Assembly: GCF_000265425.1 (NCBI RefSeq)
Contig: NC_018014.1
Coordinates: forward strand, 2,728,001-2,792,000
Direction: 5' to 3'
DNA from: Terriglobus roseus DSM 18391
GTDB lineage: Bacteria > Acidobacteriota > Terriglobia > Terriglobales > Acidobacteriaceae
DNA length: 64,000 bases
Shown here: one piece after another, positions 48,366 to 64,000 of the stretch
How the letters are laid out: each line of letters begins with the position of its first letter
How positions within the stretch are numbered: position 1 is the stretch's first letter
Made by a program: the position numbers and the translations under genes
The notes under the pieces: model-generated
Database searches by the model: none
What the model was told of the DNA's origin: nothing
Seen by the model: the letters and a program-made list of their open reading frames with translations, nothing else

Positions 48366-49394
48366 CTAGAGACCAGCAGCCAGTCCGCTGACAAGTTCGG
48401 CGTACTTCTCAACAGCGTCCAGCAGTTCAGACTTGAGCACCTTCTCCTCGGGCGTGTGCGCGACATGAATGGTTCCAGGTCCCAGCAGCATCGGCTCACC
48501 CCAGTTCGTCAGCGAGGAAATGTCCGTGGCGTACTTCGCCACCATCGTCTCCCAGCCCGGCATGCGCTTCATGCGGACGGCGGACAGGTCGAGCGCAAAC
48601 TTCACATCGCAGCGGTTCGCAACCACCCGCTCCACAATGTCCTTCACGTCGCGCGAATCGCCAATGGTGCGGATCAATACGTGCGCCTCGGCCGCGTCGG
48701 CGATCACATTCGGAGCTCGTCCGCCGCTGACCAGGCCGGTATTCACCGTCGTCTCACCGATCTCGGCATCCACCGGAAACTCTGTCCGCTGCAGCTCGTG
48801 CAGGACGTCGATCAGCTTGTTGATCGCGGAGTCGCCAAGCTCGGGGTACGCCGAATGGGCCATCTTGCCGCTGGCGCGAAGTTCCACCCGCAACGCGCCC
48901 TTGGTGGCGAGCGCTAGTTTGTTCTCCGTCGGTTCGCCATTGATCAGGTAGCGCGAGCCGTGTCCATCAAGATTCGCCACCTTAGCACCGGCGGAGTCAC
49001 GCTCTTCACCGACGACGTAAAGCAAGCCAACTGCAACGCCGCCCTTCAGAAGCTTCTCTGCGGCGCACACCTGCGATGCGAGGATGCCCTTGGCATCGCA
49101 CGAACCGCGGCCGTACACGTACACGTCGTCTTCGCTCGATTCGAAGTACGGCGGCACCGTATCAAAGTGCGTCGACAGGGTGATCAGCGGCGACGAGCCG
49201 GGCATGGTCGCATAGACATTGAAACGCTCACCGGATGAGCCGTTGATCCCCGGCTGCTCCACCTTCTGCCGCTCCACGTTGTAGCCAAGCCCGCGCAGAT
49301 ATTCGTCAAGAAACACGCCGCAGCGGCCTTCGTTGTAGGTCGTCGATTCGATGTCGACAAGCTTTCGTGTCAGCGCAATTGGATCGATGGACAT
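48366..49394 (-). CDS. M20-family metallopeptidase (ArgE/DapE-like)
   Basis: A 342-aa zinc peptidase. Visible signatures: LITLSTHFDTVPPYF (first metal His-Asp), VYGRGSCDAKGILASQ (bridging Asp), VVGEERDSAGAK (catalytic Glu-Glu), LVELRASGKMAHSAYPELGDSAINKLIDVL (dimerisation lid) and a C-terminal GPGTIHVAHTPEE metal-binding region. Typical substrates are N-acyl amino acids or dipeptides; specificity cannot be read. Start taken at 49394 because the long frame upstream lies over the divergent hydrolase. Its promoter shares a 42-base intergenic region with that gene. Confidence 0.85.
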   Translation of the reverse strand: MSIDPIALTRKLVDIESTTYNEGRCGVFLDEYLRGLGYNVERQKVEQPGINGSSGERFNVYATMPGSSPLITLSTHFDTVPPYFESSEDDVYVYGRGSCDAKGILASQVCAAEKLLKGGVAVGLLYVVGEERDSAGAKVANLDGHGSRYLINGEPTENKLALATKGALRVELRASGKMAHSAYPELGDSAINKLIDVLHELQRTEFPVDAEIGETTVNTGLVSGGRAPNVIADAAEAHVLIRTIGDSRDVKDIVERVVANRCDVKFALDLSAVRMKRMPGWETMVAKYATDISSLTNWGEPMLLGPGTIHVAHTPEEKVLKSELLDAVEKYAELVSGLAAGL

Positions 49395-49436
49395 GCACAC
49401 AAGGATACCCGACGAAGTCGCCGCTATCATCGAAGC

Positions 49437-50144
49437 ATGGCTGCAACCATTCAAACGATCGAGACACTGCGCGGACCCGCGGGGCGGCTGGAGGCGTTGC
49501 TCAACGTCGGCAACAGCGCCGCAACTTACTCCGCGCTGGTCTGTCATCCGCATCCGCCGTCGGGCGGCACCATGCATACCAAGGTGGTCTATCAGGCCGC
49601 GAAGGGATTCTCGCACTTCGGTGTGCCGGTACTCCGCTTCAACTTCCGCGGGACAGGCCGCAGCGAAGGCGTCCATGACAACGGCCCCGGCGAGATCGAA
49701 GATGTTCGCGCTGCGATCAATTGGCTCGATCATGAGTTCGGTCTGCCGATCCTCCTTGCAGGCTTCTCCTTCGGTGCGAACATCGCCTTCCGCGCGGGCT
49801 GCGGCGATCCACGCATCAAGGGCCTCATCGGCCTTGGAATGCCGGTGGAGGCGGGCGGGCGCAAGTACAGCTATGAGTTCATGAGGGACTGCACCGCACC
49901 GAAGCTCTTCCTCACCGGTGCAGAAGATCCCTTCGCTCCGAGAGAGCTGATGGAGGAAGTCTTCGCGAACGCACCCGGCGACACCGAGATGCGCTGGATC
50001 GAGGGCGCGGAGCACTTCTTCGCGGGCGTGCCGTCCTCGCCCGCAGTCAAGCTCGACCGCATGCAGCTCGCGCTGCGCGAATGGCTCCACGCGCACTTCT
50101 TCCGGCAGACACCCGTCGTTGAGGCGGCTCGCGAGGCAAGATAG
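49437..50144 (+). CDS. Alpha/beta hydrolase
   Basis: A 235-aa cytoplasmic hydrolase of the dienelactone-hydrolase-like (COG2945-type) group. CHPHPPSGGTMHTKVV, FNFRGTGRSEG, the nucleophile Ser111 in LAGFSFGAN, an Asp in GAEDPFAP and a His in GAEHFF form a full catalytic set. Substrate unknown. Divergent from the M20 peptidase. Confidence 0.82.
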   Translation: MAATIQTIETLRGPAGRLEALLNVGNSAATYSALVCHPHPPSGGTMHTKVVYQAAKGFSHFGVPVLRFNFRGTGRSEGVHDNGPGEIEDVRAAINWLDHEFGLPILLAGFSFGANIAFRAGCGDPRIKGLIGLGMPVEAGGRKYSYEFMRDCTAPKLFLTGAEDPFAPRELMEEVFANAPGDTEMRWIEGAEHFFAGVPSSPAVKLDRMQLALREWLHAHFFRQTPVVEAAREAR

Positions 50145-50216
50145 ATCGAGCTCCCAGGTGGCATTTCCCGCACCCGGGAACGTACTCTCTTCCTGCGCGG
50201 AAGTCCGGCGATCTAC

Positions 50217-50372
50217 ATGGTTTTGCAGTGCGAGCTATGGGAAAACGTAGACCGCTTTACGCCCAGCGGTCAGCGGTATGATGAACTGGTATTGACAAGC
50301 CATTTCCACCAACTGGACCGCATATTTGATGACGTCTATCGCCATAAGCGATTGGCCTCCAACGTGCAATAG
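50217..50372 (+). CDS. Possible small protein, 51 aa
   Basis: ATG 50217 to TAG 50372, in a 280-base gap otherwise without a gene. The translation has protein-like composition (ELWENVDRFTPSGQRYDELV, then HFHQLDRIFDDVYRHKR) rather than the Arg/Ser/Pro bias of shadow frames. No good ribosome-binding site is visible, so it may be a remnant or may belong to a longer unit. I do not recognise it. Confidence 0.4.
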   Translation: MVLQCELWENVDRFTPSGQRYDELVLTSHFHQLDRIFDDVYRHKRLASNVQ

Positions 50373-50425
50373 AAGGTGATGAGCGCGCGTTTCGCGATAC
50401 GTCGCCGGAGATCAAGACCGAAGGA

Positions 50426-53362
50426 ATGGGCAAGGCGCTACAAACCCGCGTAACCGCCGTTGTGTTGGCGATCGTGACCCTACTGGTCTGCGCGCTGGGC
50501 ATTGCCAATTTTCTTCAGGAGAGCTCGTACGAGGCGCCGACGGACGGCGTCTGGTGGATTGAAGGCACCGGTGGCCTGCTGGCAGAGCGCGTCCCTGCGA
50601 ACTCGCCTGCGCATCGCGCTGGCGTCCGCGAAGGCGATCTACTTGTCACGGCCAACAAGCGCAACACACTAGCTGCCCCGGCTCTGCAGCGTGAGATGGG
50701 CCACACCGGCACATGGGGCCACATCAATTACTCGTTGATGCGCGGCAAGGCGCCACTCGAAGTCCCCGTCATTCTCGAGCCGACCGACCGCAGCCGCAAC
50801 CAGGGTCTTCGTCTCATTGCGCTGGCTTACCTTGCCATCGGCATGTATGTCCTGCTGCGACGCTGGACTGCGCCAAAGGCGATGCACTTCTACGTCTTCT
50901 GCCTCGTCAGCGGCGTCCTTTACAGCTTCCGCTACACGGGCGTCTTCGACACGCTGGATTGGATCTGCTACTGGGGCGTGCTGGCTGCGGGAGCACTGCA
51001 ACCCGCCCTCTTCCTGCACTTCGCCGTCTCGTTTGGCGACATGACGCAGTCCCTGCGCCGCAAGGCATTGGTTGCGTTGATCTACATTCCGGGCGCGGTC
51101 GAGTTCGGCCTGCAGATCGAGGCCATCACACGCTGGTCGGCGACCGAGCGGCTGAAGCATCGGCTGGATCAGATTGGCGTGGGCTATCTCGCGCTGTATT
51201 ACGTGATCGCAGCGGTTGTCTTCTGGTTCCGGTACCGCGCGTCCGACAAGCCGCTGGAGCGGCAGCAGTTGAAGTGGCTGACGCGCGGCACACAGCTCTC
51301 CGTCATCCCGTTCACTGCGCTCTACGCAATTCCCTACCTTGCGGACGCGGACGTTCCCGTCGCACTGGCCCGCGCCGCCGGATTCGCGCTGATCTTCCTG
51401 CCTCTCACCTTCGCGTGGGCCATTGTTCGCTACCGCCTGATGGACACGGACCTGATCTTCAAGCGTGGTGTCACCTACACGCTCGCGACGGCCGCGCTTA
51501 TCGGCGTCTACTTCGGCGTGGTCGCCCTGTCGGCAGAGGTGGTGCACACCCGCCTGCCCAGCCTGCGGATCTGGGGACTGCTCGCCGGTATCATCGCCAC
51601 CGCGCTGATCTTCGAGCCGATCAAAGCAGCCATCCAGGCGCGTGTCGACCGGCTCTTCGACCGCAAGCGGTACGACTATCGCGAGACGCTGATCGAGTTC
51701 AGCCGCGGCCTCTCTTCGCAGACAGATCTGCCGACGCTCTCGCGCTCTATCGTGGAGCGGCTCTCGCAGACACTTCTGGTTTCGCGCGTTGCAGTCTTCG
51801 TCGCATCGGACGACGGAACCGGCCGAGACTTCTCGCTGGCAGCATCCCACGGTCTGCCCGACAACATCCTCGTCGACCTGCCCACGCAGACCTCGCGCGA
51901 CTCCTTCCTCAACTTCGGTCTGCTTTCTCAGGACCACATCTTCTTTGAGAATCCGCAGCAGTTGCTGCACCTGGAGCCGGCTGAGCAGCGGATGGCATCG
52001 CTGCTGGACCTGAACTACTACCTGCCGTGTCGCGTCTCCCGCCAGGGACACGCCTCGCGCACCATCGCCGTCATCGGCCTGGGCCGCACGCAGGAAGGTG
52101 ACTTCCTCTCCTCCGAAGACATGGAGCTGCTGAGCTCCCTCGCCGGATACATCGGCATCGCCATCCAGAACGCGCAGCTCTTCTCGCGGCTGGAGCAGCA
52201 GATCACCGAGTTTGAGCGCCTGAAGGAGTTCAACGAGAACATCGTCGAATCCATCAAGGTCGGTATCTTCACTCTGGACCTGAACAACGCCGTCGAGAGT
52301 TGGAACGCCGAGATGGAAGTGATGTACGCGCTCCCGCGTGCGGACGCCATCGGCCGCAACGTTGCCGAACTCTTCCCGAGCACGTTTCTCGAACCCTTCT
52401 TCGAGGCCCATAACCAGCCCGGAACGCATCACCTGTCAAAGGTACGGTTGGATCTGCGCACCGGCGAAAGCCGCACGGCCAACATCGCCATTGCCCCACT
52501 GCTAACGCGCGACTTCGTCTCCGTTGGCTCCATCGTCATGATGGAAGACATCACGGATCGCACTCGCCTGGAAGGTCAACTGACACAGGCTGAGAAGCTG
52601 TCCTCCATAGGCCTACTCGCTGCGGGCGTAGCGCACGAGGTGAACACGCCACTCGCCGTGATCTCGTCCTACGCGCAGATGCTCCAGAAGCACACGCGCG
52701 ACGATCTGCGCCTTGCTCCGATCCTCGAAAAGATCACGCAGCAAACCTTCCGCGCGTCGGAGATCGTCAACGGCCTGCTGAACTTCTCGCGGACCAGCTC
52801 GACGGTCTTCGCCTCTCTCGATCTGAACGCGGTGCTTCGCGAGACACTGACGCTGATCGATCACCAGCTCCGCACAGCTCGTGTCACCGTCGACGCGGAC
52901 CTGCAGGCAACGCTGCCACGCATCTACGGCAGCCAGGGCAAACTGCAGCAGGTGATCCTGAATCTTCTGTTGAACGCCAAAGACGCCATGAACGACGGCG
53001 CCGGCGGCACCATCCGCCTGGTCACCTATGACAACGGCAACGACGTGACACTGCGTATCTCCGATACTGGCTCCGGCATCGATCCGGAGCACCTCCATCG
53101 CATCTACGATCCGTTCTTCACCACGAAAAATGCGCCTCGTCAGGGGCAGCATAAGGGGACCGGATTGGGGTTGTCGGTTTCTTATGGCATCGTGCAGGAG
53201 CATAATGGCCGTATCGCGGTGGAGAGCACCGTCGGCGTGGGCACCACGTTCACGCTCGACTTCCCCATCGAGCCATCGCCCAAGGATGACCCAAGCGCGC
53301 AGCGCGAACCGTCCAAATCACAGGCGATCGATCCCATCGAAGCAAGGACCGTGAATGCCTGA
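50426..53362 (+). CDS. Membrane histidine kinase with PDZ, seven-helix, GAF and PAS domains
   Basis: A 978-aa sensor kinase. A first membrane helix (about 8-28) is followed by a periplasmic PDZ-like domain (about 40-110: GLLAERVPANSPAHRAGVREGDLL), then about seven more helices to residue 395, a GAF domain (about 430-600), a PAS domain (about 605-715), HisKA with His737 in AAGVAHEVNTPLAVISSYAQ, and HATPase (N box LLNAKDAMND, G boxes DTGSGI and GTGLGL). Its stop overlaps the start of the sigma-54 response regulator by eight bases, so they form a cognate pair. The PDZ suggests sensing of misfolded or peptide ligands in the periplasm. Confidence 0.9.
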   Translation: MGKALQTRVTAVVLAIVTLLVCALGIANFLQESSYEAPTDGVWWIEGTGGLLAERVPANSPAHRAGVREGDLLVTANKRNTLAAPALQREMGHTGTWGHINYSLMRGKAPLEVPVILEPTDRSRNQGLRLIALAYLAIGMYVLLRRWTAPKAMHFYVFCLVSGVLYSFRYTGVFDTLDWICYWGVLAAGALQPALFLHFAVSFGDMTQSLRRKALVALIYIPGAVEFGLQIEAITRWSATERLKHRLDQIGVGYLALYYVIAAVVFWFRYRASDKPLERQQLKWLTRGTQLSVIPFTALYAIPYLADADVPVALARAAGFALIFLPLTFAWAIVRYRLMDTDLIFKRGVTYTLATAALIGVYFGVVALSAEVVHTRLPSLRIWGLLAGIIATALIFEPIKAAIQARVDRLFDRKRYDYRETLIEFSRGLSSQTDLPTLSRSIVERLSQTLLVSRVAVFVASDDGTGRDFSLAASHGLPDNILVDLPTQTSRDSFLNFGLLSQDHIFFENPQQLLHLEPAEQRMASLLDLNYYLPCRVSRQGHASRTIAVIGLGRTQEGDFLSSEDMELLSSLAGYIGIAIQNAQLFSRLEQQITEFERLKEFNENIVESIKVGIFTLDLNNAVESWNAEMEVMYALPRADAIGRNVAELFPSTFLEPFFEAHNQPGTHHLSKVRLDLRTGESRTANIAIAPLLTRDFVSVGSIVMMEDITDRTRLEGQLTQAEKLSSIGLLAAGVAHEVNTPLAVISSYAQMLQKHTRDDLRLAPILEKITQQTFRASEIVNGLLNFSRTSSTVFASLDLNAVLRETLTLIDHQLRTARVTVDADLQATLPRIYGSQGKLQQVILNLLLNAKDAMNDGAGGTIRLVTYDNGNDVTLRISDTGSGIDPEHLHRIYDPFFTTKNAPRQGQHKGTGLGLSVSYGIVQEHNGRIAVESTVGVGTTFTLDFPIEPSPKDDPSAQREPSKSQAIDPIEARTVNA

Positions 53363-54770
53363 GGCATTACCCGACAACACACTCGCACTCGGCGCACGCA
53401 TTCTCATCATTGACGACGAAGCCGCCATCCGTGACTCTCTCGAAGCACTTTTGACCCTGGAAGGCTTCACCGTCGATCTGGCCCCGGAAGGCATCAGCGG
53501 CCTCGAAGCGCTCGCTGGCGGTCAGTACGACCTGCTGCTGCTGGACCTGTCCATGCCGGGCGAGAGCGGCATCGACCTGCTGCCCCGCATCAAGCGTATG
53601 CGGCCCGAACTCCCCGTCATCATGATTACGGCCTTCGGCACCGTCGGCAACGTCGTCGACGCACTCCGTGCGGGCGCCGATAACTTCGTCCAGAAGCCCT
53701 GGGATAACGAGAAGCTCCTGGCGGACATGCGGACCGCGATCGCGAAGCATCGCTCGCAGCAGGAGGTCGTTCAGCTTCGTAAGACCTTGAAGCAGCGATA
53801 CAGCTTCGACAACATCATCGGCAAGTCCGACATCATGGCGAAGCTGCTGGACACCGTCGCACAGGTCGCACCCGCGAAGACCACCGTCCTCATCCAGGGC
53901 GAGAGCGGCACCGGCAAGGAACTCATCGCCAAGGCCATCCACACGGCCAGCCCGCGCCGCGACAAGCCCTTCGTAGCCATCAACACGGGCGCCGTACCGA
54001 CCGACCTGCTGGAGTCCACACTCTTCGGACACGTGAAGGGCGCCTTCACCTCCGCCGTTGCGGCGAAGAAGGGCCTCTTCGAGGTCGCGGACGGCGGCAC
54101 ACTCTTCCTCGACGAGATCGGCACCATGCCCATCGAGACGCAGGCCAAGGTGCTGCGTGCACTGCAGGAGCGCCGCTTCATGCCCGTAGGTGGCACCGCC
54201 GAGATCGCAGTGGATGTGCGCATCGTCGCCGCCACCAACGTGAACCTGCAGGCCGCTGTTCGCGACGGACGCTTCCGCGAAGATCTTTACTATCGCCTCT
54301 CCGTCATCACGCTCGATCTGCCGGCACTGCGCCAGCGCAAGGAAGACGTTCCGCTGCTTGCCGCTCACTTCCTGCGGCACTACAGCGAAGAGAACGGCTT
54401 TGAGCTGCGCACACTCTCGCCCGACGCTTTGCGCGCCATGCTCGACTACGACTGGCCCGGCAACGTCCGCGAACTCGAGAACGCCATGGAGCGCGGCGTC
54501 GTGCTCTCCGGCGGCCCCAACATCACGCTCGACCTGCTGCCGCAACAGTTGAGCGGCACCGTCTATACCGCGGCTGTGCTCGACCACAAGACCGACGCCT
54601 CCCTCTTCGACATCATGGAAGAGATCGAGCGCCGCATCCTGGCCGACCGCCTCGAACGCTGCAACTGGAACCAGACCGAGGCCGCAGAGTTCCTGCGCAT
54701 CCCTCTAAGCACCCTGAACCAGAAGATCAAACGCCTGAACGTCGAGATCAAGAAACGCCACCGCGACTAA
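53355..54770 (+). CDS. NtrC-type sigma-54-dependent response regulator (GAFTSA variant)
   Basis: A 471-aa regulator: receiver domain (about 15-125) with phospho-acceptor Asp64 in LLLDLSMPG and Lys near FVQKPW; AAA+ domain (about 150-385) with Walker A GESGTGKE, the sigma-54 contact loop HVKGAFTSA, Walker B GGTLFLDEIG and VAATNVNL; Fis-type HTH (about 425-471: WNQTEAAEFLRIPLSTLNQKIKRL). The contact loop is GAFTSA rather than GAFTGA. It needs RpoN to activate promoters; its targets are unknown. It overlaps the kinase by eight bases. Confidence 0.9.
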   Translation: MPEALPDNTLALGARILIIDDEAAIRDSLEALLTLEGFTVDLAPEGISGLEALAGGQYDLLLLDLSMPGESGIDLLPRIKRMRPELPVIMITAFGTVGNVVDALRAGADNFVQKPWDNEKLLADMRTAIAKHRSQQEVVQLRKTLKQRYSFDNIIGKSDIMAKLLDTVAQVAPAKTTVLIQGESGTGKELIAKAIHTASPRRDKPFVAINTGAVPTDLLESTLFGHVKGAFTSAVAAKKGLFEVADGGTLFLDEIGTMPIETQAKVLRALQERRFMPVGGTAEIAVDVRIVAATNVNLQAAVRDGRFREDLYYRLSVITLDLPALRQRKEDVPLLAAHFLRHYSEENGFELRTLSPDALRAMLDYDWPGNVRELENAMERGVVLSGGPNITLDLLPQQLSGTVYTAAVLDHKTDASLFDIMEEIERRILADRLERCNWNQTEAAEFLRIPLSTLNQKIKRLNVEIKKRHRD

Positions 54771-54779
54771 CGGCGACGC

Positions 54780-55697
54780 TTAGAGCGTCGTGGGCAGTAG
54801 CAAGGTAATCGTCCGCGATGAACGGAGTTGGATCATTGCCGGCAGGCACCCGACCCACTCACCGTCCGCCTGCACGTGAGTTCTGCCAACCGCTCCGTCA
54901 CACGTGAATGAGACCACATCGTGTCGGCTGAGCAGCGGGTTCCAGCGCTCCAGCCGCAACCATGAGGACAGAAACCAAAGCGGCATAGCAAGCAGTGCCG
55001 GCGCTTTGACGAGCACCAGTCGCATGCTCTCGTCATTGAACGTGGCGCCGCGTGCCACACCCGGAAAGATGCCGCCGAGATCCCCGATGCGCAGTGCCAT
55101 CGCACTCACTGCCTCCGCCGTCCCCTCCGTGCCATCCGCACCCTTCCATTGCACGCGAAACGGACGGAAGCCCCCACGCAGCAACAGGCGCAGAGCATGC
55201 CAAAGGTAGGCCCACCGCCCTACGAAGCTTCGATTGATCGTCAGCATTCGGTACATCAAGGCACCGTCGGGCCCACTACCGGCCATCGTCAAGAAGTAGC
55301 GTTCGCCGCTCGTTGTCACACACTGACCAACGGCTACACGGCGCTCGCGCCTCGCGGCATAGGCAGCGGCCGCTCGCAGCGGATTCAACGGAATGGATAG
55401 CTCGCGGCACAACGCATTCGCACTGCCCAGCGGGATGATCGCGAGCTTCGCTGAAGTACCGACGATGCCCTGCAACACGTCGTGAACGGTACCGTCGCCG
55501 CCGCAGGCAAAGATGACCTCCGCACGCTCCGCAATCGCCGAGCGCGCCTGGTCCCCGGCACTGCCGCGATGCGTGGTCGCTGTCACCGTAAGCTCGTATC
55601 CATGCCCGCGCAGCAACGAAGCAATCTGCTGCACCGTGGCCTCACGGGCACTGCGGTTGCGGCCAGCCTGCGGGTTGTAGAGCAGAAGGCCGCGCAT
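54780..55697 (-). CDS. Diacylglycerol/lipid kinase family protein in the hopanoid operon
   Basis: A 305-aa lipid kinase of the DgkB/YegS family. Conserved YNPQAG-RN (phosphate loop), the nucleotide-binding GGDGT motif at residues 66-70, the PLGSANALCREL segment (GSANA instead of the usual GTAND) and a C-terminal HVQADGEWVG with the QxDGE motif. It would phosphorylate a lipid hydroxyl using ATP. It is the last gene of the hopanoid operon, 12 bases after the dehydrogenase gene. Substrate may be diacylglycerol, sphingoid or another lipid. Confidence 0.82.
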   Translation of the reverse strand: MRGLLLYNPQAGRNRSAREATVQQIASLLRGHGYELTVTATTHRGSAGDQARSAIAERAEVIFACGGDGTVHDVLQGIVGTSAKLAIIPLGSANALCRELSIPLNPLRAAAAYAARRERRVAVGQCVTTSGERYFLTMAGSGPDGALMYRMLTINRSFVGRWAYLWHALRLLLRGGFRPFRVQWKGADGTEGTAEAVSAMALRIGDLGGIFPGVARGATFNDESMRLVLVKAPALLAMPLWFLSSWLRLERWNPLLSRHDVVSFTCDGAVGRTHVQADGEWVGCLPAMIQLRSSRTITLLLPTTL

Positions 55698-55709
55698 GAT
55701 GTCTGGAGT

Positions 55710-56807
55710 CTACGGCTGAATGACGATCTTCATGGAGTCGGCAACAGGATGCGATGCCAGGTCGATCCCTTTCACAGCGTCCTCAAGTGAGAAGCGGTGC
55801 GAGATCAGCTTCGTAAGATCGAATGTGCCGTCGCGATAACCGCTGAACACGAGCTCAATCGCCTCATCCTGGATGGCAACGGAAGATGAGTACGACCCCA
55901 TCAACGTCTTCTCATCCATGCAGACAGCGGCCGGATCGAAGGGAGCTTCGCCATGCTGCGTCTGCGCAAAGAGGCAGACACGGCCACCGGGCCGAATCGC
56001 ATTCATCGCCAGGGTGATCAGGCTGTTCGCGCCCACGGCAAGCAGAGCAACATCCGCGCCACGCCCCTCGGTCACACGCTTGCACTCCGCAACGACGTCG
56101 GCGTTCGCATCCAGCGGATGATCGAGTCCGTACCCCGCAGCCACCGCATGACGCTCCGCGTAGAGATCGCTCGTCAGCACATGCGGCGTCTTGCGCTTGG
56201 CAAGAGCAGCCAGCAGGATGCCAATGGGTCCCTGACCGATGACAAGAACAGTCTCATCATCCTTCAGGTCAAGAAGCTCAATGGCCTTGTAGCAGGTGTT
56301 GACCGGCTCGATCCATGCAGCCTGCTCAAACGGAATATCGTTAGGAAGCTTAATTAATCCCCTGCGAACGATCCAGTCCATCACGCGGATATACTCCGCA
56401 AACCCACCGCCCGATGGCTCGCCAAAGCCAGCCGTAGCGCCAACCTTCTTGTACGTCTCGCACTGCGCAAAGGTCTGCTTGCGGCAGTAGTAGCACTCGC
56501 CGCAGGGAATATGGTGAAAGCTCATCACGCGGTCGCCAACCGCAAAGCCCTTAACTCCCTCGCCCACCTGCACGATGGTTCCAGCCATCTCATGGCCAAA
56601 GATCCGCGGCGCCGAGTGCGATCCCGTGTGGATCTTCTTCAGATCCGTCCCGCAGATGCCGCAGGTATCGATCTTCATCAACACTTCGCCAGCGCCGATC
56701 GTCGGCACGACAACCGTCTCCACACGAACATCATTCACAGCACGGTACACAGCAGCGCGCTGCTCCGTTGGCAAGGTCGTTTCTTCACGAGTCACTGCAA
56801 CACTCAT
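55710..56807 (-). CDS. Zinc-dependent dehydrogenase in the hopanoid operon
   Basis: A 365-aa medium-chain dehydrogenase of the threonine/sorbitol dehydrogenase type. Catalytic zinc ligands in DTCGICGTDLKKIH and FGHEMAG, structural zinc cysteines in CGECYYCRKQTFAQC, NAD-binding VIGQGPIGILLAAL, and a full-length C-terminal domain. It overlaps hpnG by four bases (ATGA) and precedes the lipid kinase. Its position suggests action on a polyol side-chain intermediate, such as a ribosylhopane-derived aldehyde, but this is inference. Confidence 0.85.
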   Translation of the reverse strand: MSVAVTREETTLPTEQRAAVYRAVNDVRVETVVVPTIGAGEVLMKIDTCGICGTDLKKIHTGSHSAPRIFGHEMAGTIVQVGEGVKGFAVGDRVMSFHHIPCGECYYCRKQTFAQCETYKKVGATAGFGEPSGGGFAEYIRVMDWIVRRGLIKLPNDIPFEQAAWIEPVNTCYKAIELLDLKDDETVLVIGQGPIGILLAALAKRKTPHVLTSDLYAERHAVAAGYGLDHPLDANADVVAECKRVTEGRGADVALLAVGANSLITLAMNAIRPGGRVCLFAQTQHGEAPFDPAAVCMDEKTLMGSYSSSVAIQDEAIELVFSGYRDGTFDLTKLISHRFSLEDAVKGIDLASHPVADSMKIVIQP

Positions 56808-57493
56808 CGCGGTCTCTCAATTCCAATGTCATCGGCAATGGCTGCGCACAGATTCACCGCTGCCAGCTTTGCCTGCTTGCCAAACTGCGCAAGCGAACTC
56901 CAGCACTGCGGCTTCGTCGCAACATGTGCGATGAAGCGCGCCGTCGCGAACTGCCCTGCTGCGGTCACGAACGGATTCATATCCGGCAGCTCTTCATCCA
57001 GGGTATCGCTGATGGCCTTGATGGCGCGGAAGCCCAAACCGTTCGCCATAGCCAAACGTGCCACCGTGGAAGCTTCCATATCCACCGCAACCGCCCCGTC
57101 ATAAGTACCCGCCAGGCGATGCTTCTCTTCACGCACAGCAACGCGCGTTGATGTCAGCAACAGTCCGCCAGGGCCATTGGCCGGCAGCATCTCACCCGTA
57201 TTCAGATCGCGCACCATGCTGGCACGCACGATCGAACCCGGCGCCAGTTCTTCGCGCAGAGCACCCGCCCAGCCAACGGACAGTAACTGCATCGGTTCGC
57301 ACACCTGGCGCGCTCGCGCAAATGAACGCAGCGCCGCGTTCGCTCCCATACCGCCCGCAAAGGCCATGATCGGCCCATTAGGATGCTGCCACCCGTCGAC
57401 GCCGTCCTTGGTCTCAAGCGCAGCCCAACTACGGACCAGCGGCTTCAGTTCGCCAGGCATAGCGGCGATGATCACGATCGCATCGTTCATCAT
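56804..57493 (-). CDS. hpnG: Hopanoid-associated phosphorylase/nucleosidase HpnG
   Basis: A 229-aa member of the purine nucleoside phosphorylase superfamily. VIIAAMPGELKPLV start, GMGANAA, SVGWAGAL, the VAVDMEASTVARLA segment and KAISDTLDEELPDM are typical of HpnG, which releases adenine from adenosylhopane to give ribosylhopane. The start at 57493 overlaps the hpnA stop by four bases; the longer frame to 57538 is less likely. Located between hpnA and the zinc dehydrogenase. Confidence 0.87.
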   Translation of the reverse strand: MMNDAIVIIAAMPGELKPLVRSWAALETKDGVDGWQHPNGPIMAFAGGMGANAALRSFARARQVCEPMQLLSVGWAGALREELAPGSIVRASMVRDLNTGEMLPANGPGGLLLTSTRVAVREEKHRLAGTYDGAVAVDMEASTVARLAMANGLGFRAIKAISDTLDEELPDMNPFVTAAGQFATARFIAHVATKPQCWSSLAQFGKQAKLAAVNLCAAIADDIGIERPR

Positions 57494-58497
57494 GCGCGTG
57501 CCTTGTATGCCGGCGCATAGCCATTCGCAACGAACCACTCCATCGCCGAACGCAATGCCATATCCACCGGCTTCACCTCGAAGCCCAATTCTCTCTCCGC
57601 CTTCGTCGAAGCCGCGAACATCATCTTGCGCCCCATACGCACGGCCTCAACGGTTGCCCGTGGCTCCTTACCCCGGAGCTTGCCCGTGATCGTCTCGTCG
57701 AAGAAAGCGAAGGCCATCGCAACGCCGTGCGGCACCTTATGCTTCGGCGATGGCAGACCACTCATGGCGGCCATGCGATCGAGAATCTGCTTCAGCGTCA
57801 GGTTCTCGCCACCCAGGATGTAACGCTCACCCGGTGTGCCACGATCCAGTGCAACGACGTGCATGCGCGCAATCTCGGCGACATCCACCAGGTTCAGGCC
57901 GGTGTCCACGTAAGCCGGAAAGTTCTTGTTCAAGAAGTCAACGACGATGCGGCCAGTCGGCGTTGGCTTGCGATCCTGAGCACCAATTGGCGTCGTGGGA
58001 TTTAGGATCATGACGTGCTGCCCAGCCCGCGCGGCGGCAATCGCCTCCTGCTCCGCAAGCCACTTCGAACGCTTGTAGTGGCCGATCATGTCGGCTTCGC
58101 TCACTGGAGTCGTCTCGTCGACGATGATGTTTGACTTGGTAAAGCCCATGGTCGCCACGCTCGACGTGTACACCACGCGCGGCACGCCCACCTCACGCGC
58201 CAGCTTCAACAGTTCACGCGTGCCGTCAACGTTGGCCTTGTACATGTCCGCAGGATCGGGCACCCACAGTCGATAGTCCGCAGCGACATGCACCAACGCA
58301 TCGCAGCCTGTCAGCGCTGAGCGTAACGAGGACACATCGCGCAGATCGCCAACGACCGTCTCGCCCGCGATCCCCTCAAGCGAAGCAAGATTACTCGAGG
58401 AGCGTGTGAGCAGGCGCAGCTCGGCACCCGCCGCAGCGTAGGCGCCAGCCACATGACTACCGACGAACCCCGTTGCTCCAGTAAGAAAAACCCGCAT
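57490..58497 (-). CDS. hpnA: Hopanoid-associated sugar epimerase/dehydratase HpnA
   Basis: A 335-aa extended SDR. TGATGFVGSHVAGAY near the N-terminus, HVAADYRLWVPDP, YTSSVATMGF, the YKRSKW catalytic Tyr/Lys region, GERYILGGENLTL and a C-terminal helical domain match the HpnA family in hopanoid clusters. The exact reaction in side-chain synthesis is unsettled. It lies 19 bases after the unknown 150-aa gene and overlaps hpnG by four. Confidence 0.9.
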   Translation of the reverse strand: MRVFLTGATGFVGSHVAGAYAAAGAELRLLTRSSSNLASLEGIAGETVVGDLRDVSSLRSALTGCDALVHVAADYRLWVPDPADMYKANVDGTRELLKLAREVGVPRVVYTSSVATMGFTKSNIIVDETTPVSEADMIGHYKRSKWLAEQEAIAAARAGQHVMILNPTTPIGAQDRKPTPTGRIVVDFLNKNFPAYVDTGLNLVDVAEIARMHVVALDRGTPGERYILGGENLTLKQILDRMAAMSGLPSPKHKVPHGVAMAFAFFDETITGKLRGKEPRATVEAVRMGRKMMFAASTKAERELGFEVKPVDMALRSAMEWFVANGYAPAYKARA

Positions 58498-58516
58498 GAA
58501 TGGTTAGGTAGCCGAA

Positions 58517-58969
58517 CTAATCGAGCTTCTCCGGCTCGATCTGGATGTTCTTCTCGCCGGCTGCCTTCTTCTCCCAGTACTTCTTGACCCAGGCGTCAAA
58601 GGTCTTACCTGCGGCGGTGTCGCGGCCGCTGAAGTTGACCGCAGCGATCTCCGCGTACGGAATGCTGCGACGCGAACGGTCTTCGCCCTTCGACGGCATC
58701 ACACGCACCATGGAATCCAGCAGCGTCTTGCCCTGACGGCGATCGTAGACGTAGCCCTCGACAACTTCGCCGGACTTCAAAGTGAGCGTCACATCGCCGC
58801 GGTAGTCGAACGCCTTTTCAAGCACGTCCTTCACTTCCGCTTCGGTCGCGAGCTCTGGAATCCATCCTTCCAGATTCTCGCGCTCGCGGCCCGCCATTAC
58901 TTCCAGCTGGTCGGGCGATGCCTCTTGCAGCTCTTCGATCTTGAGGTGTTCCTGCTGGTCAGTCGCCAT
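58517..58969 (-). CDS. Conserved unknown protein inside the hopanoid operon, 150 aa
   Basis: A soluble 150-aa protein with an acidic helical N-terminal half (EELQEASPDQLEVM; EAEVKDVLEKAFDYRG), a small beta-rich core VTLTLKSGEVVEGYVYDR, then SIPYAEIAAVNFSGRDTAAG, and a basic C-terminal helix FDAWVKKYWEKKA. The core strand pattern could fit an Sm-like or small beta-barrel fold; this is speculative. It begins two bases after the hpnH stop and is 19 bases before hpnA, so it is translated with the pathway genes. I do not recognise a named family. Confidence 0.72.
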   Translation of the reverse strand: MATDQQEHLKIEELQEASPDQLEVMAGRERENLEGWIPELATEAEVKDVLEKAFDYRGDVTLTLKSGEVVEGYVYDRRQGKTLLDSMVRVMPSKGEDRSRRSIPYAEIAAVNFSGRDTAAGKTFDAWVKKYWEKKAAGEKNIQIEPEKLD

Positions 58970-58971
58970 CG

Positions 58972-60123
58972 TTAGTCTCCTGCCACCAGGGATTCCGCGT
59001 GGTTCACGCGCTCTGCTTCAGCCGACAGAATCGGCGAACCGATCTGCACCAGTTGGCCGTGGTTTGTTGGGCGCCAGTCATTCAGAATCTTATTCGCGCC
59101 ATCGTCCTTGTAGGTGTTGAAGAAGATCGCCTTCGCGGTCTGCAGCAAGCCCTTGACCGAGCCGAAGGTGTAGTTCACACCGCTGGCCTCATAGCCCGAG
59201 TGCACCATGCAATTCGCGCAACGCGGGTTACCGCTCTCCGTGCCGTAGTTCGCCCACTCCACCGACTGCATCAGTTCGGCGAACGAGTCAGCATAGCCAT
59301 CCTGCAGCAGGTAGCAAGGCTTCTGCCAGCCGAAGATGGAATAGGTCGGCATGCCCCAGGGCGTGCACGTCAGTTCCTTCTTGCCCATCAGGAATTCCAT
59401 GAACATGGGCGAAGCATTGAAGCGCCAGGTCTTCTTCCGGTTCGACAGCAGCGCGCGGAAGAGCTTCTTCGAGCGGGCGCGGCCCAGGAAGTGCTTCTGG
59501 TCAGGAGCCTTGTCGTACGTGTAGCCGGGCGAAACCATCATGCTCTCAACGCCGGCTTCCATCAGCTGGTCGAAGTGGCGGCGAACCGAATTCGGGTCGG
59601 CACCATCGAAGAGCGTCGTGTTTGTCGTGACACGGAAACCTGCAGCCACGGCAGCGTGAACGCCTTCCATGGCGATGTCGTAACCGCCCTCGCGGCAGAC
59701 ACCAAAGTCATGATGCTCGCGCTCACCGTCCACGTGTACTGAGAACGACAGGTACTTCGAAGGCTTGAACAGGTGCAGCTTTTCCTTCAGCAGCAAGGCG
59801 TTCGTGCACATGTACACGTACTTCTTGCGAGCGACCAGGCCGGCGACAATCTCCGGCATGCGCGGGTGCAGCAGCGGCTCGCCGCCGGGAATGGCAACCA
59901 TCGGTGTGCCGCACTCTTCCACTGCTTTGAAGCAGTCTTCGGGCGACAGCTCAGCCTTCAGGATATGGGCCGGGTACTGGATCTTGCCGCAGCCGGCGCA
60001 TGCCAGGTTGCAGCGGAACAACGGCTCCAGCATTAACACCAGCGGATACCGCTTCTTACCCATCAACTTCTGCTTCAAGACGTAGGTTGCTACGGTCCAA
60101 GCTTGCGAAACTGGTACTGCCAT
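58972..60123 (-). CDS. hpnH: Adenosyl-hopane synthase HpnH (radical SAM)
   Basis: A 383-aa B12-independent radical-SAM enzyme that adds the adenosyl radical to hopene (diploptene), forming adenosylhopane. The cluster motif is C38-NLA-C42-AG-C45 after LVLMLEPLFR; further HpnH features are AIPGGEPLLHP, LSFSVHVDGEREHHD and a Cys-rich C-terminus (NPRCANCMVHSGYEASGV). Located 67 bases after shc. HpnH is required for all side-chain-bearing hopanoids. Confidence 0.95.
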   Translation of the reverse strand: MAVPVSQAWTVATYVLKQKLMGKKRYPLVLMLEPLFRCNLACAGCGKIQYPAHILKAELSPEDCFKAVEECGTPMVAIPGGEPLLHPRMPEIVAGLVARKKYVYMCTNALLLKEKLHLFKPSKYLSFSVHVDGEREHHDFGVCREGGYDIAMEGVHAAVAAGFRVTTNTTLFDGADPNSVRRHFDQLMEAGVESMMVSPGYTYDKAPDQKHFLGRARSKKLFRALLSNRKKTWRFNASPMFMEFLMGKKELTCTPWGMPTYSIFGWQKPCYLLQDGYADSFAELMQSVEWANYGTESGNPRCANCMVHSGYEASGVNYTFGSVKGLLQTAKAIFFNTYKDDGANKILNDWRPTNHGQLVQIGSPILSAEAERVNHAESLVAGD

Positions 60124-60190
60124 TCGCGCTACCTCCAGCGTGCTTTACACGCATGCCACGCAAATGCGCAGCGAGTGAAAATCAAAACTT

Positions 60191-62227
60191 CTAAGCGTCA
60201 CTGCGTGACATGCACTTATCGTAGGTCGTCAGCGCCAGCAACGGGAAATACTGTTTGTACAGGTGGTATCCCAGATAGAACACCCGCGGGAATCCGGTAC
60301 CTGTGTAGTAGCTTTCGCCGTTTCGTCCCGGCACAAGCTCACTCCATGAACCGTCTTCCGCCTGGTGATCCACCAGCCAGCGCACACCCTTTGCAACCGA
60401 GTCGGAACGCGTATCGCCACCAGCCAGCAAGGCCAGTAGAGCCCAAGCGGTCTGTGAAGGCGTGGAAGGACCTACGCCCCGCGAACCCGGGTTATCGTAG
60501 GTGCCGCACGTCTCGCCCCATCCGCCGTCGTTGTTCTGCACGGACCGCACCCATTCCACCGACTGCTGAACCTGAGGCTCATTCGTATCGAACCCGATGG
60601 CTTCCAGGCCACGCAGCACAAGGAACGTGCCATACAAATAGTTCACACCCCAGCGCCCAAACCACGAACCATCGGACTCCTGCTCACGCAGGATGAACTG
60701 GACCGCTGCTTCCACACGCTTGTCACGGCGCGTGTAGCCATAGGCTGCCAACGTTTCCAGAATGCGGCCGGTAATGTCCACTGTCGGCGGATCCAGCATC
60801 GCGTTGTGATCGGCGAACGGGATGTACTGGAAGATCATCTTCGTGTTGTCACGATCAAACGAGGCCCAGCCGCCGTTGCGGCACTGCATGCCGAAGACCC
60901 AGTTGATGGCTCGCTCTGCGGCATCATGCTGACGAGCTTCCTGCGGATGGTCCACCATCTTCAGAGCCAGCAGGACCTCGCCCGTGTCGTCGACATCGGG
61001 GTAATGAATATTGTTGAAGAAGAATGCCCAGCCGCCCGGCTCGACGTTCTTGACCTTCTGAGCCCAATCACCCTTGTGGCGGTTCTCTTTGCTCAGCAGC
61101 CAATCGGCCGCCTTGATCATGCGCGGGTCTGTCGAGGACAGACCTGCCTCACCCAATGAGGAGACGACCTGGGCCGTATCCCATACGGGCGAAAGGCATG
61201 GCTGCATGCGGAAGGTCGGCACCGGATACTCCGGCGTTCCCTCCGGGCAATCGATCCCCAGCTTCTCAAATTCGTCCATCGCGCGAATCATCTGCGGATC
61301 ATCGAGTGAGTATCCGAGATGCCGCAGAGCAACGATGGCATTCAGCATGGCAGGATAGATCGCTCCCAGACCGTCGGAACCCTCAAAGCGCTCCAGCATC
61401 CACTCCTCGGCCTTCTTCAGCGCAACCTTCCGCAGTGGGCGGATATGAATCCGCTCGGCCCAATGCACCATGCGATCCAGGAAGAGGAAGAAGTTACGCC
61501 ACGAGACGATCTTCTTGTCCCAGCGCAGATGCAGATCGGAGTTCGCGCGACCGCCAACGAAGAGTTCGTCGATGCCCTGCTCTGCCGGCAGCAACTTCAA
61601 CGGTTTCTTCGCGTACATGATCGACAGCGGCACCAGGATGCCGCGGGACCACGATGAGATCTCGTAGATGTTGAAGTAGAACCAGTTCGGCGCAAGAACG
61701 ATCTCGGGCGGAATCGCCGGTACGGCGTCGTAATCGTACTGTCCAAACGCGCATAGATAGATCTTCGTGAAGGTGTTGCACTCCACGACACCGCCGTTCG
61801 CCAGCACCCACTCGCGTGCCTTGACGAGGATAGGATCATCCTGCGACCAGCCCATCAGCTTCAGCGCGTGGTAGGCCTTCACGCCGTAGTTAATGTTCGA
61901 TGGTCCGCCAGGGTACAGACTCCATCCGCCATCGTCGTTCTGGTGACGCAGAATTTCATTCATTGCACGCTGCATCTTGCCGGGATCGCCCGTGCCCAGC
62001 AGCGTGTGCAGGAAGATGTAATCCGCCTCCAGCATCACGTCGGCTTCCAGTTCGCCGCACCAGTAGCCATCTGCGTGCTGCTGGCCCAGCAGCCACTCCT
62101 TCGCCGTTGACACGGCTGCACGCACTCTGTCCAGGCCAAGGTCAAGACGACCAAAGCGCGGCTGTGCGGGGCTCGCGGATGCGGTGGTTGCCGCTGGCGT
62201 GCCCGATCTCAAGTCATTTTCCTGCAT
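60191..62227 (-). CDS. shc: Squalene-hopene cyclase
   Basis: A 678-aa class-II triterpene cyclase that converts squalene to hopene and hopanol at the inner membrane. The catalytic motif is D411-V-D413-D414-T; multiple QW repeats are visible (QNDDGGWGETCGTYDNP, QESDGSWFGRWG, QHADGYWCGE, QNDDGGWSLYPGG). Length is in the family range. It is the first gene of the seven-gene minus-strand hopanoid operon. Confidence 0.96.
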   Translation of the reverse strand: MQENDLRSGTPAATTASASPAQPRFGRLDLGLDRVRAAVSTAKEWLLGQQHADGYWCGELEADVMLEADYIFLHTLLGTGDPGKMQRAMNEILRHQNDDGGWSLYPGGPSNINYGVKAYHALKLMGWSQDDPILVKAREWVLANGGVVECNTFTKIYLCAFGQYDYDAVPAIPPEIVLAPNWFYFNIYEISSWSRGILVPLSIMYAKKPLKLLPAEQGIDELFVGGRANSDLHLRWDKKIVSWRNFFLFLDRMVHWAERIHIRPLRKVALKKAEEWMLERFEGSDGLGAIYPAMLNAIVALRHLGYSLDDPQMIRAMDEFEKLGIDCPEGTPEYPVPTFRMQPCLSPVWDTAQVVSSLGEAGLSSTDPRMIKAADWLLSKENRHKGDWAQKVKNVEPGGWAFFFNNIHYPDVDDTGEVLLALKMVDHPQEARQHDAAERAINWVFGMQCRNGGWASFDRDNTKMIFQYIPFADHNAMLDPPTVDITGRILETLAAYGYTRRDKRVEAAVQFILREQESDGSWFGRWGVNYLYGTFLVLRGLEAIGFDTNEPQVQQSVEWVRSVQNNDGGWGETCGTYDNPGSRGVGPSTPSQTAWALLALLAGGDTRSDSVAKGVRWLVDHQAEDGSWSELVPGRNGESYYTGTGFPRVFYLGYHLYKQYFPLLALTTYDKCMSRSDA

Positions 62228-62344
62228 TCTGATTAGACGAATCCTTCGGCAGATGCGGTGCAGCCTGCGAACCTTCGTGGATGCTGCAAATACGGCGTAA
62301 AACGCAATTGATACCGCGTTTCGGTAGCAAATGCCAGAGAAATA

Positions 62345-63364
62345 CTAAGCGCGAACAGTCTGCGCTCCCGGCGCGGATGCGATGGCCTGCACGATCTCAG
62401 GCGGAAGGCCGAAACGGACGTTCTCCGGCATCACCTCAACCTCATCGACATCACCATATCCCTTGCCTTGCAGATAGGCCACAACTTCCTGCACCAAGAC
62501 CTCAGGCGCAGACGCACCGGCCGTGATCGCCACGCGCCCTCTGCCCTCCAGCCACTCGGGCTGGATGTCCTTGGCGCTGTCGATCAGGTAGGACGTGGTC
62601 CCGATATTCATCGAGACCTCAACCAGGCGGTTCGAGTTGGAACTGTTCCGCGATCCGACGACGAGAACCAGATCGGCACCATGCGCCACATTCTTAACGG
62701 CAGTCTGGCGGTTCTCGGTGGCGTAGCAGATGTCCTGCGCATGCGGTCCCACGATCTTCGGGAACTTCTTCTTCAGCGCCTCGATCATGTACTTCGCTTC
62801 GTCCAGCGACAACGTGGTCTGCGTGAGATACGCAACGCGTTCTGGATCGGGCACGACAAGCTGATCAACCTCTTCAACGGTTGAAACCACCTGGGTCACA
62901 TCCGGAGCCTCGCCCTGCGTGCCCTCGACTTCTTCGTGATCGCGATGTCCGACCAGCACCAGCGAGTAGCCCTGCTTGGCAAACTTGATCGCCTCGACGT
63001 GCACCTTGGTAACAAGTGGGCAGGTCGCGTCGATCACTTTAAGTCCGCGTTCCTTCGCGCGCTCACGAACAGCCGGCGAGACGCCGTGCGCGGAATAGAT
63101 CACGCGCTTGCCCTCAGGCACCTCGTCCAGTTCGTTGACGAAGATCGCCCCCTTCTGGCGCAGGTCATCGACCACGTAGCTGTTGTGCACGATCTCTTTG
63201 CGCACGTAGATCGGCGCGCCGAAGGTGTCCAGCGCAATCTTGACGATGTCGACCGCGCGCACTACACCGGCGCAGAAACCACGGGGCTTCAGCAGCAGAA
63301 CGCGCTTCTGTTTTGCGCTGTCATTTTCGGCGGAGATGGGCGGGTCGAGGGTAAGGGTGCTCAC
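62345..63364 (-). CDS. ispH: 4-hydroxy-3-methylbut-2-enyl diphosphate reductase IspH
   Basis: A 339-aa [4Fe-4S] enzyme, the last step of the MEP isoprenoid pathway, giving IPP and DMAPP. Conserved KPRGFCAGVVRAVDIV, VHNSYVVDDL, SAHGVSP, DATCPLVTKVH, HRDHEEVEGTQGE, QTTLSLDE, ICYATENRQTAV and GSRNSSNSNRL, GASAPE. The GTG at 63364 is chosen since the family sequence begins about 20 residues later; an ATG at 63430 would extend it. TATACT lies six bases before the GTG. It supplies precursors for squalene and hence for the adjacent hopanoid operon. Confidence 0.94.
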   Translation of the reverse strand: MSTLTLDPPISAENDSAKQKRVLLLKPRGFCAGVVRAVDIVKIALDTFGAPIYVRKEIVHNSYVVDDLRQKGAIFVNELDEVPEGKRVIYSAHGVSPAVRERAKERGLKVIDATCPLVTKVHVEAIKFAKQGYSLVLVGHRDHEEVEGTQGEAPDVTQVVSTVEEVDQLVVPDPERVAYLTQTTLSLDEAKYMIEALKKKFPKIVGPHAQDICYATENRQTAVKNVAHGADLVLVVGSRNSSNSNRLVEVSMNIGTTSYLIDSAKDIQPEWLEGRGRVAITAGASAPEVLVQEVVAYLQGKGYGDVDEVEVMPENVRFGLPPEIVQAIASAPGAQTVRA

Positions 63365-63483
63365 CTTGAAAGTATACCGCGAAGTAAACAGCGAGTGGTC
63401 CGAATTGAACCGTCGCTGGTGCAAAGGCATGAAACTCTTGAGCGCGGCGGTGACGCAATATGGCGCACGCACCCAAGGCAGAC

Positions 63484-63639
63484 CTAGAGATGTCCGCCGC
63501 AGCCCGTGTGAGTGCAATGACAACTCAGCGTGTTCGGGGCGGCGGCAGCCGCGTCCTTGCACAGATCCGAGCAGAATTTGCCTTCCGTAACCGTACAGGT
63601 GCAAGGCAGATGGGCGCATTTCTTTGGATCGTGAGACAT
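63484..63639 (-). CDS. Bacterial metallothionein (SmtA/BmtA type), 51 aa
   Basis: ATG at 63639, TAG at 63484-63486. The 51-residue product has eight cysteines (C8, C13, C15, C23, C27, C40, C42, C47) and several histidines in the order CAHLPCTCTV, GKFCSDLC, SCHCTHTGCGG, which is the zinc-finger-containing layout of bacterial metallothioneins: CxCxV, FCSxxC, then CxC...C. These proteins bind zinc, cadmium or copper in the cytoplasm. A GGAGG ribosome-binding site lies seven bases upstream. It is between ispH and recN on the same strand. A longer overlapping frame in the other direction has no support. Confidence 0.8.
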   Translation of the reverse strand: MSHDPKKCAHLPCTCTVTEGKFCSDLCKDAAAAAPNTLSCHCTHTGCGGHL

Positions 63640-63700
63640 TTGGGGCCTCCGCTTGACTTACTGGCAGGAAGTATAGACCTCGCCCAGTCCTAAGCAGCGA

Positions 63701-64000
63701 CTATTTACTAGCCTTCAACATCTGCTCAGCGTGACGCAAACTCGTCTCCGTCACGGTGGCGCCACTGATCATGCGCGCTATCTCGCTCGTCCGCTCCTCT
63801 TCCTTCATCTGCCGGATCTGGGTGCGGGTACGGCCGTCACGCTCAGACTTCTCGACAAGGAAATGCTGATTCGCAAATGCAGCGATCTGCGGGAGATGCG
63901 TGACGCACAGAACCTGTTGATGGCTCGCGAGCGCCTTCAGCTTCTGCCCGACAGCCTCTGCCGCCCTCCCGCCGATACCGATATCGATTTCATCGAAGAC
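63701..64000 (-). CDS. recN: DNA repair protein RecN, C-terminal part (runs off the window)
   Basis: The last 99 codons and stop of RecN. The Walker B and following segment read VFDEIDIGIGGRAAEAVGQK, then QVLCVTHLPQIAAFANQHF and a C-terminal MISGATVTETSLRHA, all typical of this SMC-like ATPase of double-strand break repair. The start lies beyond position 64000. Confidence 0.93.
   Translation of the reverse strand, partial: VFDEIDIGIGGRAAEAVGQKLKALASHQQVLCVTHLPQIAAFANQHFLVEKSERDGRTRTQIRQMKEEERTSEIARMISGATVTETSLRHAEQMLKASK

Follow-up and report, generated by a model that had tools for sequence, protein, structure and literature searches.

An Sm-like protein encoded directly behind hpnH is a probable accessory subunit of the adenosyl-hopene transferase HpnH in Acidobacteriota

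Results

The hopanoid gene cluster of Terriglobus roseus

The window, i.e. the whole stretch of 64,000 nucleotides from Terriglobus roseus DSM 18391 that was analysed, carries a hopanoid gene cluster on its minus strand in the order ispH-shc-hpnH-ug3-hpnA-hpnG-like. It comprises an ispH (LytB) frame (62345..63619), the actual start of which probably lies inside the frame, the squalene-hopene cyclase gene shc (60191..62227), hpnH (58972..60123), the gene under study (58517..58969; 150 aa, ATG start) and hpnA (57490..58497). The 383 aa radical SAM adenosyl-hopene transferase HpnH and HpnA were identified by their NCBIfam scores of 519.9 bits (cut-off 225.05) and 462.9 bits (cut-off 367.65), respectively. 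HpnH performs the first side-chain step in the formation of bacteriohopanepolyols, lipids that serve as geological biomarkers. A HpnG-like phosphorylase (56804-57538 of the window) scored 81.6 bits, well below the HpnG cut-off of 187.1. The gene starts 2 bases after the end of hpnH and stops 19 bases before hpnA, as the original prediction had stated, and a Shine-Dalgarno-like AGGAG (58977..58981, minus strand) is located within the final hpnH codons ahead of its ATG. The T. roseus genome, a single contig of 5,227,858 bases, holds a second copy of this region.

For subdivision 1 Acidobacteria, a hopanoid cluster (cluster B) was described in which hpnH precedes ug3, a gene with no known function that was reported missing from the SD3 and SD1/3 clusters (Sinninghe Damste et al., 2017, PMC5462960). 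As the gene at 58517-58969 likewise follows hpnH in a subdivision 1 acidobacterium, we assign it by position as ug3. The protein was rightly predicted to be without a recognisable family. The gene itself is already in print; the passages of PMC5462960 available to us describe no fold, tail or fusion for ug3, and among titles and abstract openings of the open-licence literature no description of its role was found. What is new here are the predicted Sm-like fold, the ug3-associated tail motif and the fusions.

ug3 is predicted to adopt a small Sm-like barrel

AlphaFold2 prediction on A1, a profile built from 44 ug3 sequences, gave a model with a mean pLDDT of 67.9 and a pTM of 0.53, in which the core alone is confident. 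This predicted Sm-like core (58631..58843, minus strand; residues 43-113) consists of one helix (42-55) and five strands (58-63, 68-77, 86-91, 100-103 and 107-112), and the conserved segment FSGRDTAAG (58607..58633) is found at and just past strand 5. A basic C-terminal helix (58562..58600, residues about 123-136) is predicted with weaker confidence than the core, while residues 1-38 have pLDDT values below 50. Hence, the beta-rich core and the basic C-terminal helix proposed previously were recovered in the model, but of the acidic helical N-terminus only a low-confidence helix (7-13) was retained. The Sm/LSm-like fold is composed of an N-terminal helix followed by a bent five-stranded sheet. 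This arrangement is found in the model above, and a second model, predicted from the HpnH tail together with ug3, has the same order of helix and strands.

Foldseek searches with the first model listed the Sm-like protein XC5848, Hfq, WYL-domain proteins, YaeO and an Edc3/Scd6 entry; for the second model RimP ranked first and ribosomal proteins also ranked high. With neither model was a match at E<=0.001 obtained. Structure comparison (VIA) of the first model yielded Hfq (3rer_F, Z 8.6, rmsd 2.1 Å over 61 residues), a designed barrel (Z 8.3), YaeO (6jie_A, Z 8.1, 3.2 Å over 71 residues, 20% identity) and PafBC (Z 8.0), and that of the second model 2e12 (Z 8.7), PafBC (8.4) and Hfq (8.2, rmsd 1.4 Å over 56 residues), where Z values near 8 can reflect a common arrangement. 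WYL/PafBC domains and designed small barrels thus tie with Hfq, and our assignment to the Sm type is based on the topology and the number of Hfq/Sm entries among the fold matches. There is good support for the prediction of a small barrel of the Sm/SH3-like kind.

At the sequence level, ug3 had no Pfam or NCBIfam match above cut-off, in line with the earlier failure to assign a motif, and such a match to an unrelated housekeeping family, which would have spoken against the original prediction, did not appear in these databases either. The best hits of a PDB sequence search had E values of 0.67 and 0.79. Among the 44 members, ROF was the commonest weak Pfam match (eight members, best E 0.029), ahead of MshEN (five, 0.015), DUF6982 (PF22478; three, 0.019, under its cut-off of 24.5 bits), pP_pnuc_1 (two, 0.0015) and SM-ATX (one, 0.1). 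The Rof/YaeO family (PF07073) scored 12.4-12.6 bits over ug3 residues 48-76, far under the cut-off of 27.6. When the whole genome was searched with ROF, only the two ug3 copies matched, at an E value of 1.25, and a profile alignment to E. coli Rof exceeded 100 of 100 shuffles, albeit narrowly (21.9 versus 19.8). The sequence support for kinship with Rof is therefore weak. DUF6982 matched two other proteins in this genome, and a direct comparison with ug3 was insignificant; the Hfq profile (TIGR02383) found one Hfq (C1:884339) and did not match ug3.

ug3 relatives remain with hpnH

Searches for ug3 covered Acidobacteriota, plasmids, viral contigs and genome_contigs. A tblastn search of genome_contigs returned 418 relatives, of which the best 80 were retained. 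In the alignment of 44 sequences the other members are 45-82% identical to ug3 and 18 columns are invariant; these relatives and the conserved alignment indicate that ug3 is more than a chance open reading frame. Three of the best 80 loci (L010, L048 and L054) are labelled as other phyla and were taken for mislabelled bins. With ug3 as single query no plasmid match was obtained at E<=1, and none of 27 pattern matches in viral contigs was a ug3 relative.

In the phylum sample of 396 genomes, ug3 was found in 47 by single-sequence search and in 49 by profile A1 (E<=0.01), the latter comprising 45 full-length proteins, one partial sequence (G239) and three weak matches (G221, G185 and G255), which read as YqeY-like, PIN-like and carboxypeptidase-regulatory-like proteins and look like chance. 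Forty-four of the full-length proteins belong to family f1 and one to G203, the sole ug3-positive genome among 15 of family f29. HpnH was above cut-off in 96 of the 396 genomes. In the class sample ug3 was detected in 211 of 399 genomes, including the doubtful G450 (E 2.2e-4, two stops), which is probably a chance match. G387 (E 8.9e-4, two stops), from the single-sequence search of the phylum sample, gave no match once its sequence was examined. With the class listing ordered by kinship, 108 genomes of f1 were positive and two negative, and the distribution was patchy in f2, f91, f89, f90 and f92.

The gene directly upstream and on the same strand is hpnH in 79 of the best 80 of 418 loci, the 80th beginning 66 bases before the open reading frame at a contig edge, and in all 45 full-length cases of the phylum sample. 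Gaps between -4 and +6 bases, with start codons chosen by rule, separate hpnH and ug3 in 65 of the 79 and 39 of the 45 cases, respectively. Likewise, in a divergent class set (50 loci from 48 genomes, as G720 and G708 are counted twice) HpnH was upstream or fused everywhere except in L324, which lies at a contig start. hpnA adjoins ug3 in most, but not all, relatives: of the best 80 of 418 loci, 62 have it on the same strand, and in ten loci with 6 kb read downstream it was not found, while hpnH is present. The proposed link to the hopanoid operon therefore holds, and full-length relatives did not turn up away from hopanoid genes, but the tie is to hpnH rather than to the hpnH-hpnA pair. A partial ug3-like stretch (L126:3-416, minus strand) was observed at a contig edge behind a PilT-like-looking region that has no Pfam match, and no hopanoid gene was found on this short contig. 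Besides, a further, incomplete ug3-like frame (L351:4740-5078) lies in G516 some 2 kb downstream from the first one.

HpnH proteins encoded with ug3 carry a conserved C-terminal tail

Alignment of HpnH sequences from genomes with and without ug3 revealed a C-terminal extension in the ug3-positive ones (58975..59133 in the window, minus strand), with two conserved segments, YKDDGANKIL (59083..59112; mostly Y-x-D-x-x-A) and QLVQI (59041..59055; usually PLVQI). In the phylum sample the tail behind the CMVHxGYE motif measures 58-74 aa in all 45 ug3-positive genomes, versus 21-26 aa in 41 of the 43 ug3-less HpnH that could be read by pattern, the other two having 37 (G095) and 61 aa (G330). These 43 are part of 52 ug3-less entries (51 above cut-off and the fragment G275), and the nine missed by the pattern have short ends by eye; among these nine, the HpnH frame of G029 (L241) is interrupted, either by a stop or by a change of frame. 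An LVQI-like motif occurs in 45 of 45 ug3-positive and in none of the 43 ug3-less tails. It was also present in 73 of the 75 tails read among the best 80 of 418 loci (five unread), where the other two have LVAI and LVSI.

A long tail as a general feature of HpnH was rejected within the Acidobacteriota sample. Outside it, five HpnH from Pseudomonadota plasmid records have unrelated tails of 60-90 aa, and the tail of a Streptomyces HpnH is short. In the class sample, HpnH was sought in 80 of the 188 genomes without ug3; 45 were above cut-off and 30 were read. The 28 tails measured are 23-83 aa long, the long ones often being rich in Gly and Asn, and neither an LVQI motif (by eye) nor a ug3 match was found at these 30 loci, indicating that it is the motif, not a long tail alone, that marks ug3. 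These loci (L276-L305) represent a second, distant type of HpnH within the same class, and those of f91 often have the Gly/Asn-rich tail. In the divergent set the LVQI pattern is kept in 35 of 39 unfused and ten of ten fused loci; the exceptions read LVNI, LIQI and, twice in one genome, FVNI. The loose Y-x-D-x-x-A pattern fails in five of the 39 unfused loci, and the tail of G203 does not contain its D.

Among 107 distinct HpnH sequences, the tail residues A31, L46 and I49 are invariant, followed by L35 (106), D28 (105), Y26 (104) and Q48 (101), while a dozen columns past the motif drop to about 20-50%. The conserved positions mostly use mixed synonymous codons, which argues for constraint acting on the protein. 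For the same set, which consists mostly of f1 sequences, pN/pS was 0.122 in the core, 0.48 in the tail and 0.257 in the six codons around the motif, a small number of codons. The end of the tail was excluded as evidence, since the same bases encode the ug3 Shine-Dalgarno sequence. When the HpnH tail and ug3 were modelled as a single chain, no strand formed at LVQI (block pLDDT 61) and no ordered docking was predicted.

Natural contrasts were also found. The two ug3-less genomes among the 110 of f1 (G573 and G624) possess a distant HpnH with a short tail of 24 aa. ug3 is absent from G330, whose HpnH tail does not contain the motif, whereas both occur in its congener G203, and from reading of the translations the gene after ug3 in G203 directly follows hpnH in G330. 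The G330 genome has a completeness of 92% and a contamination of 8%, and its placement beside G203 is not firm. Much of the linkage between tail and ug3 follows one HpnH subfamily, and hence the number of independent events is small.

HpnH and ug3 are fused in several lineages

HpnH and ug3 were found in one open frame in ten genomes (G442, G522, G546, G675, G492, G396, G732, G712, G561 and G633), where the G712 frame is truncated by the end of its contig, and the genomes of G561 and G633 each consist of one contig. All six fusions tested against NCBIfam were HpnH, and Pfam recognised radical SAM and DUF3463 domains with nothing above cut-off for the remainder. The long ug3 frames of G720, G528 and G708 are not fusions, as their overlap with HpnH is in a different frame. 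As the set was enriched for divergent sequences and long frames, the ten cases give no rate of fusion. On a tree of the HpnH core (55 hand-chosen rows, nine of them fused) the fused label requires three changes, three being also forced by the starred branches, with the changes unpolarised, and three separate fusions would be the simplest history suggested by these sequences.

Discussion

A partnership of HpnH and ug3 is likely, because the two genes form one protein in several lineages. We consider it probable that ug3 is an Sm-like accessory subunit, or detachable C-terminal domain, of HpnH, held by the tail or fused. ug3 would be made right behind HpnH, probably by coupled translation; while HpnH attaches the adenosyl group to hopene, ug3 may act as its detachable C-terminal domain, kept close through the tail segments Y-x-D-x-x-A and P-L-V-Q-I, or joined covalently in the fused lineages. 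Since HpnH of the other bacteria examined has no ug3, we presume the role of ug3 to be regulatory or stabilising rather than catalytic, perhaps helping HpnH to stay folded and positioned at the membrane or the electron donor. Both the contact in the unfused case and the route via the tail are conjectural: docking by the tail receives no support from the single-chain model, and the LVQI motif may serve HpnH itself, as it is kept in all ten fusions. More tentatively, and somewhat less probably than not, we speculate that HpnH is a two-part enzyme in many Acidobacteriota, with an Sm-fold subunit that grips the tail motif, controls activity or membrane placement, and has repeatedly been fused.

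The original prediction of a non-enzymatic helper probably stands; as to the RNA- or lipid-handling factor that it held possible, the natural fusions speak for an enzyme subunit rather than such a factor working by itself. Hfq and YaeO/Rof are among the closest predicted folds, and the commonest weak Pfam match, the whole-genome ROF search and the shuffled alignments all point in the direction of Rof, so one might think of ug3 as an Hfq- or Rof-like RNA-binding regulator of hopanoid operon expression or of Rho-dependent termination. Yet the ROF scores fall far short of the cut-off, the genomic context differs from that of Rof/YaeO, a true Hfq is encoded elsewhere in the genome, and it is hard to see why a factor working in trans should be fused to a metabolic enzyme in three places on the tree of that enzyme. 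We regard such a regulator as unlikely; RNA handling is conceivable from the Sm-like fold but unsupported, and the helix and five strands predicted for ug3 are shared with Hfq and Sm/LSm proteins, although the Hfq profile misses it.

Slightly less likely still is that ug3 is no fixed subunit of HpnH and instead passes on hopene or adenosylhopane, or recruits HpnA, HpnG or a reductant. The frequent presence of hpnA on the same strand would suit this function, and the basic C-terminal helix could touch the membrane; however, hpnH persists in the ten loci where hpnA was not found, and every fusion observed is to HpnH. That the tail and ug3 are passengers of one HpnH subfamily with no direct functional tie is quite improbable: ug3 does track one part of the family on the HpnH core trees, but the motif columns are near-invariant as protein with synonymous codons free to vary, ug3 and the motif are absent together from G330 and present together in G203 of the same genus, and fusion has been repeated.

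Among known systems, the accessory subunit favoured here may find a model in Edc3/Scd6 (4a54 among the fold matches), as the LSm domain of Edc3 was reported to bind short helical leucine-rich motifs in its partner enzyme Dcp2 (PMC4320757). These proteins act in eukaryotic mRNA decapping, and the resemblance is one of analogy, not kinship. If our proposal is true, an Sm-type fold has been adapted to serve a lipid-making enzyme as its dedicated partner, which would bear on how Sm folds are viewed, namely as those of RNA proteins; such a subunit, so far undescribed and present in abundant soil bacteria, would also matter for pathway reconstitution and for predicting hopanoid producers. The natural fused proteins make the HpnH-ug3 partnership directly testable.

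The duplicated stretch covers 48520-64000 of the window; its second copy is located approximately 460.5 kb away on this contig and differs by a substitution (58036) and a single-base homopolymer difference (63315). Of nine spot pairs taken at a fixed offset, one was identical, and indels may account for the rest. For T. roseus KBS 63, 13.79% contamination with markers identical, one excepted, is reported (PMC5900883). The homopolymer difference is situated near the start of the conserved ispH part, so that in one of the two copies the 5' end may be shifted or the sequence may contain an error.
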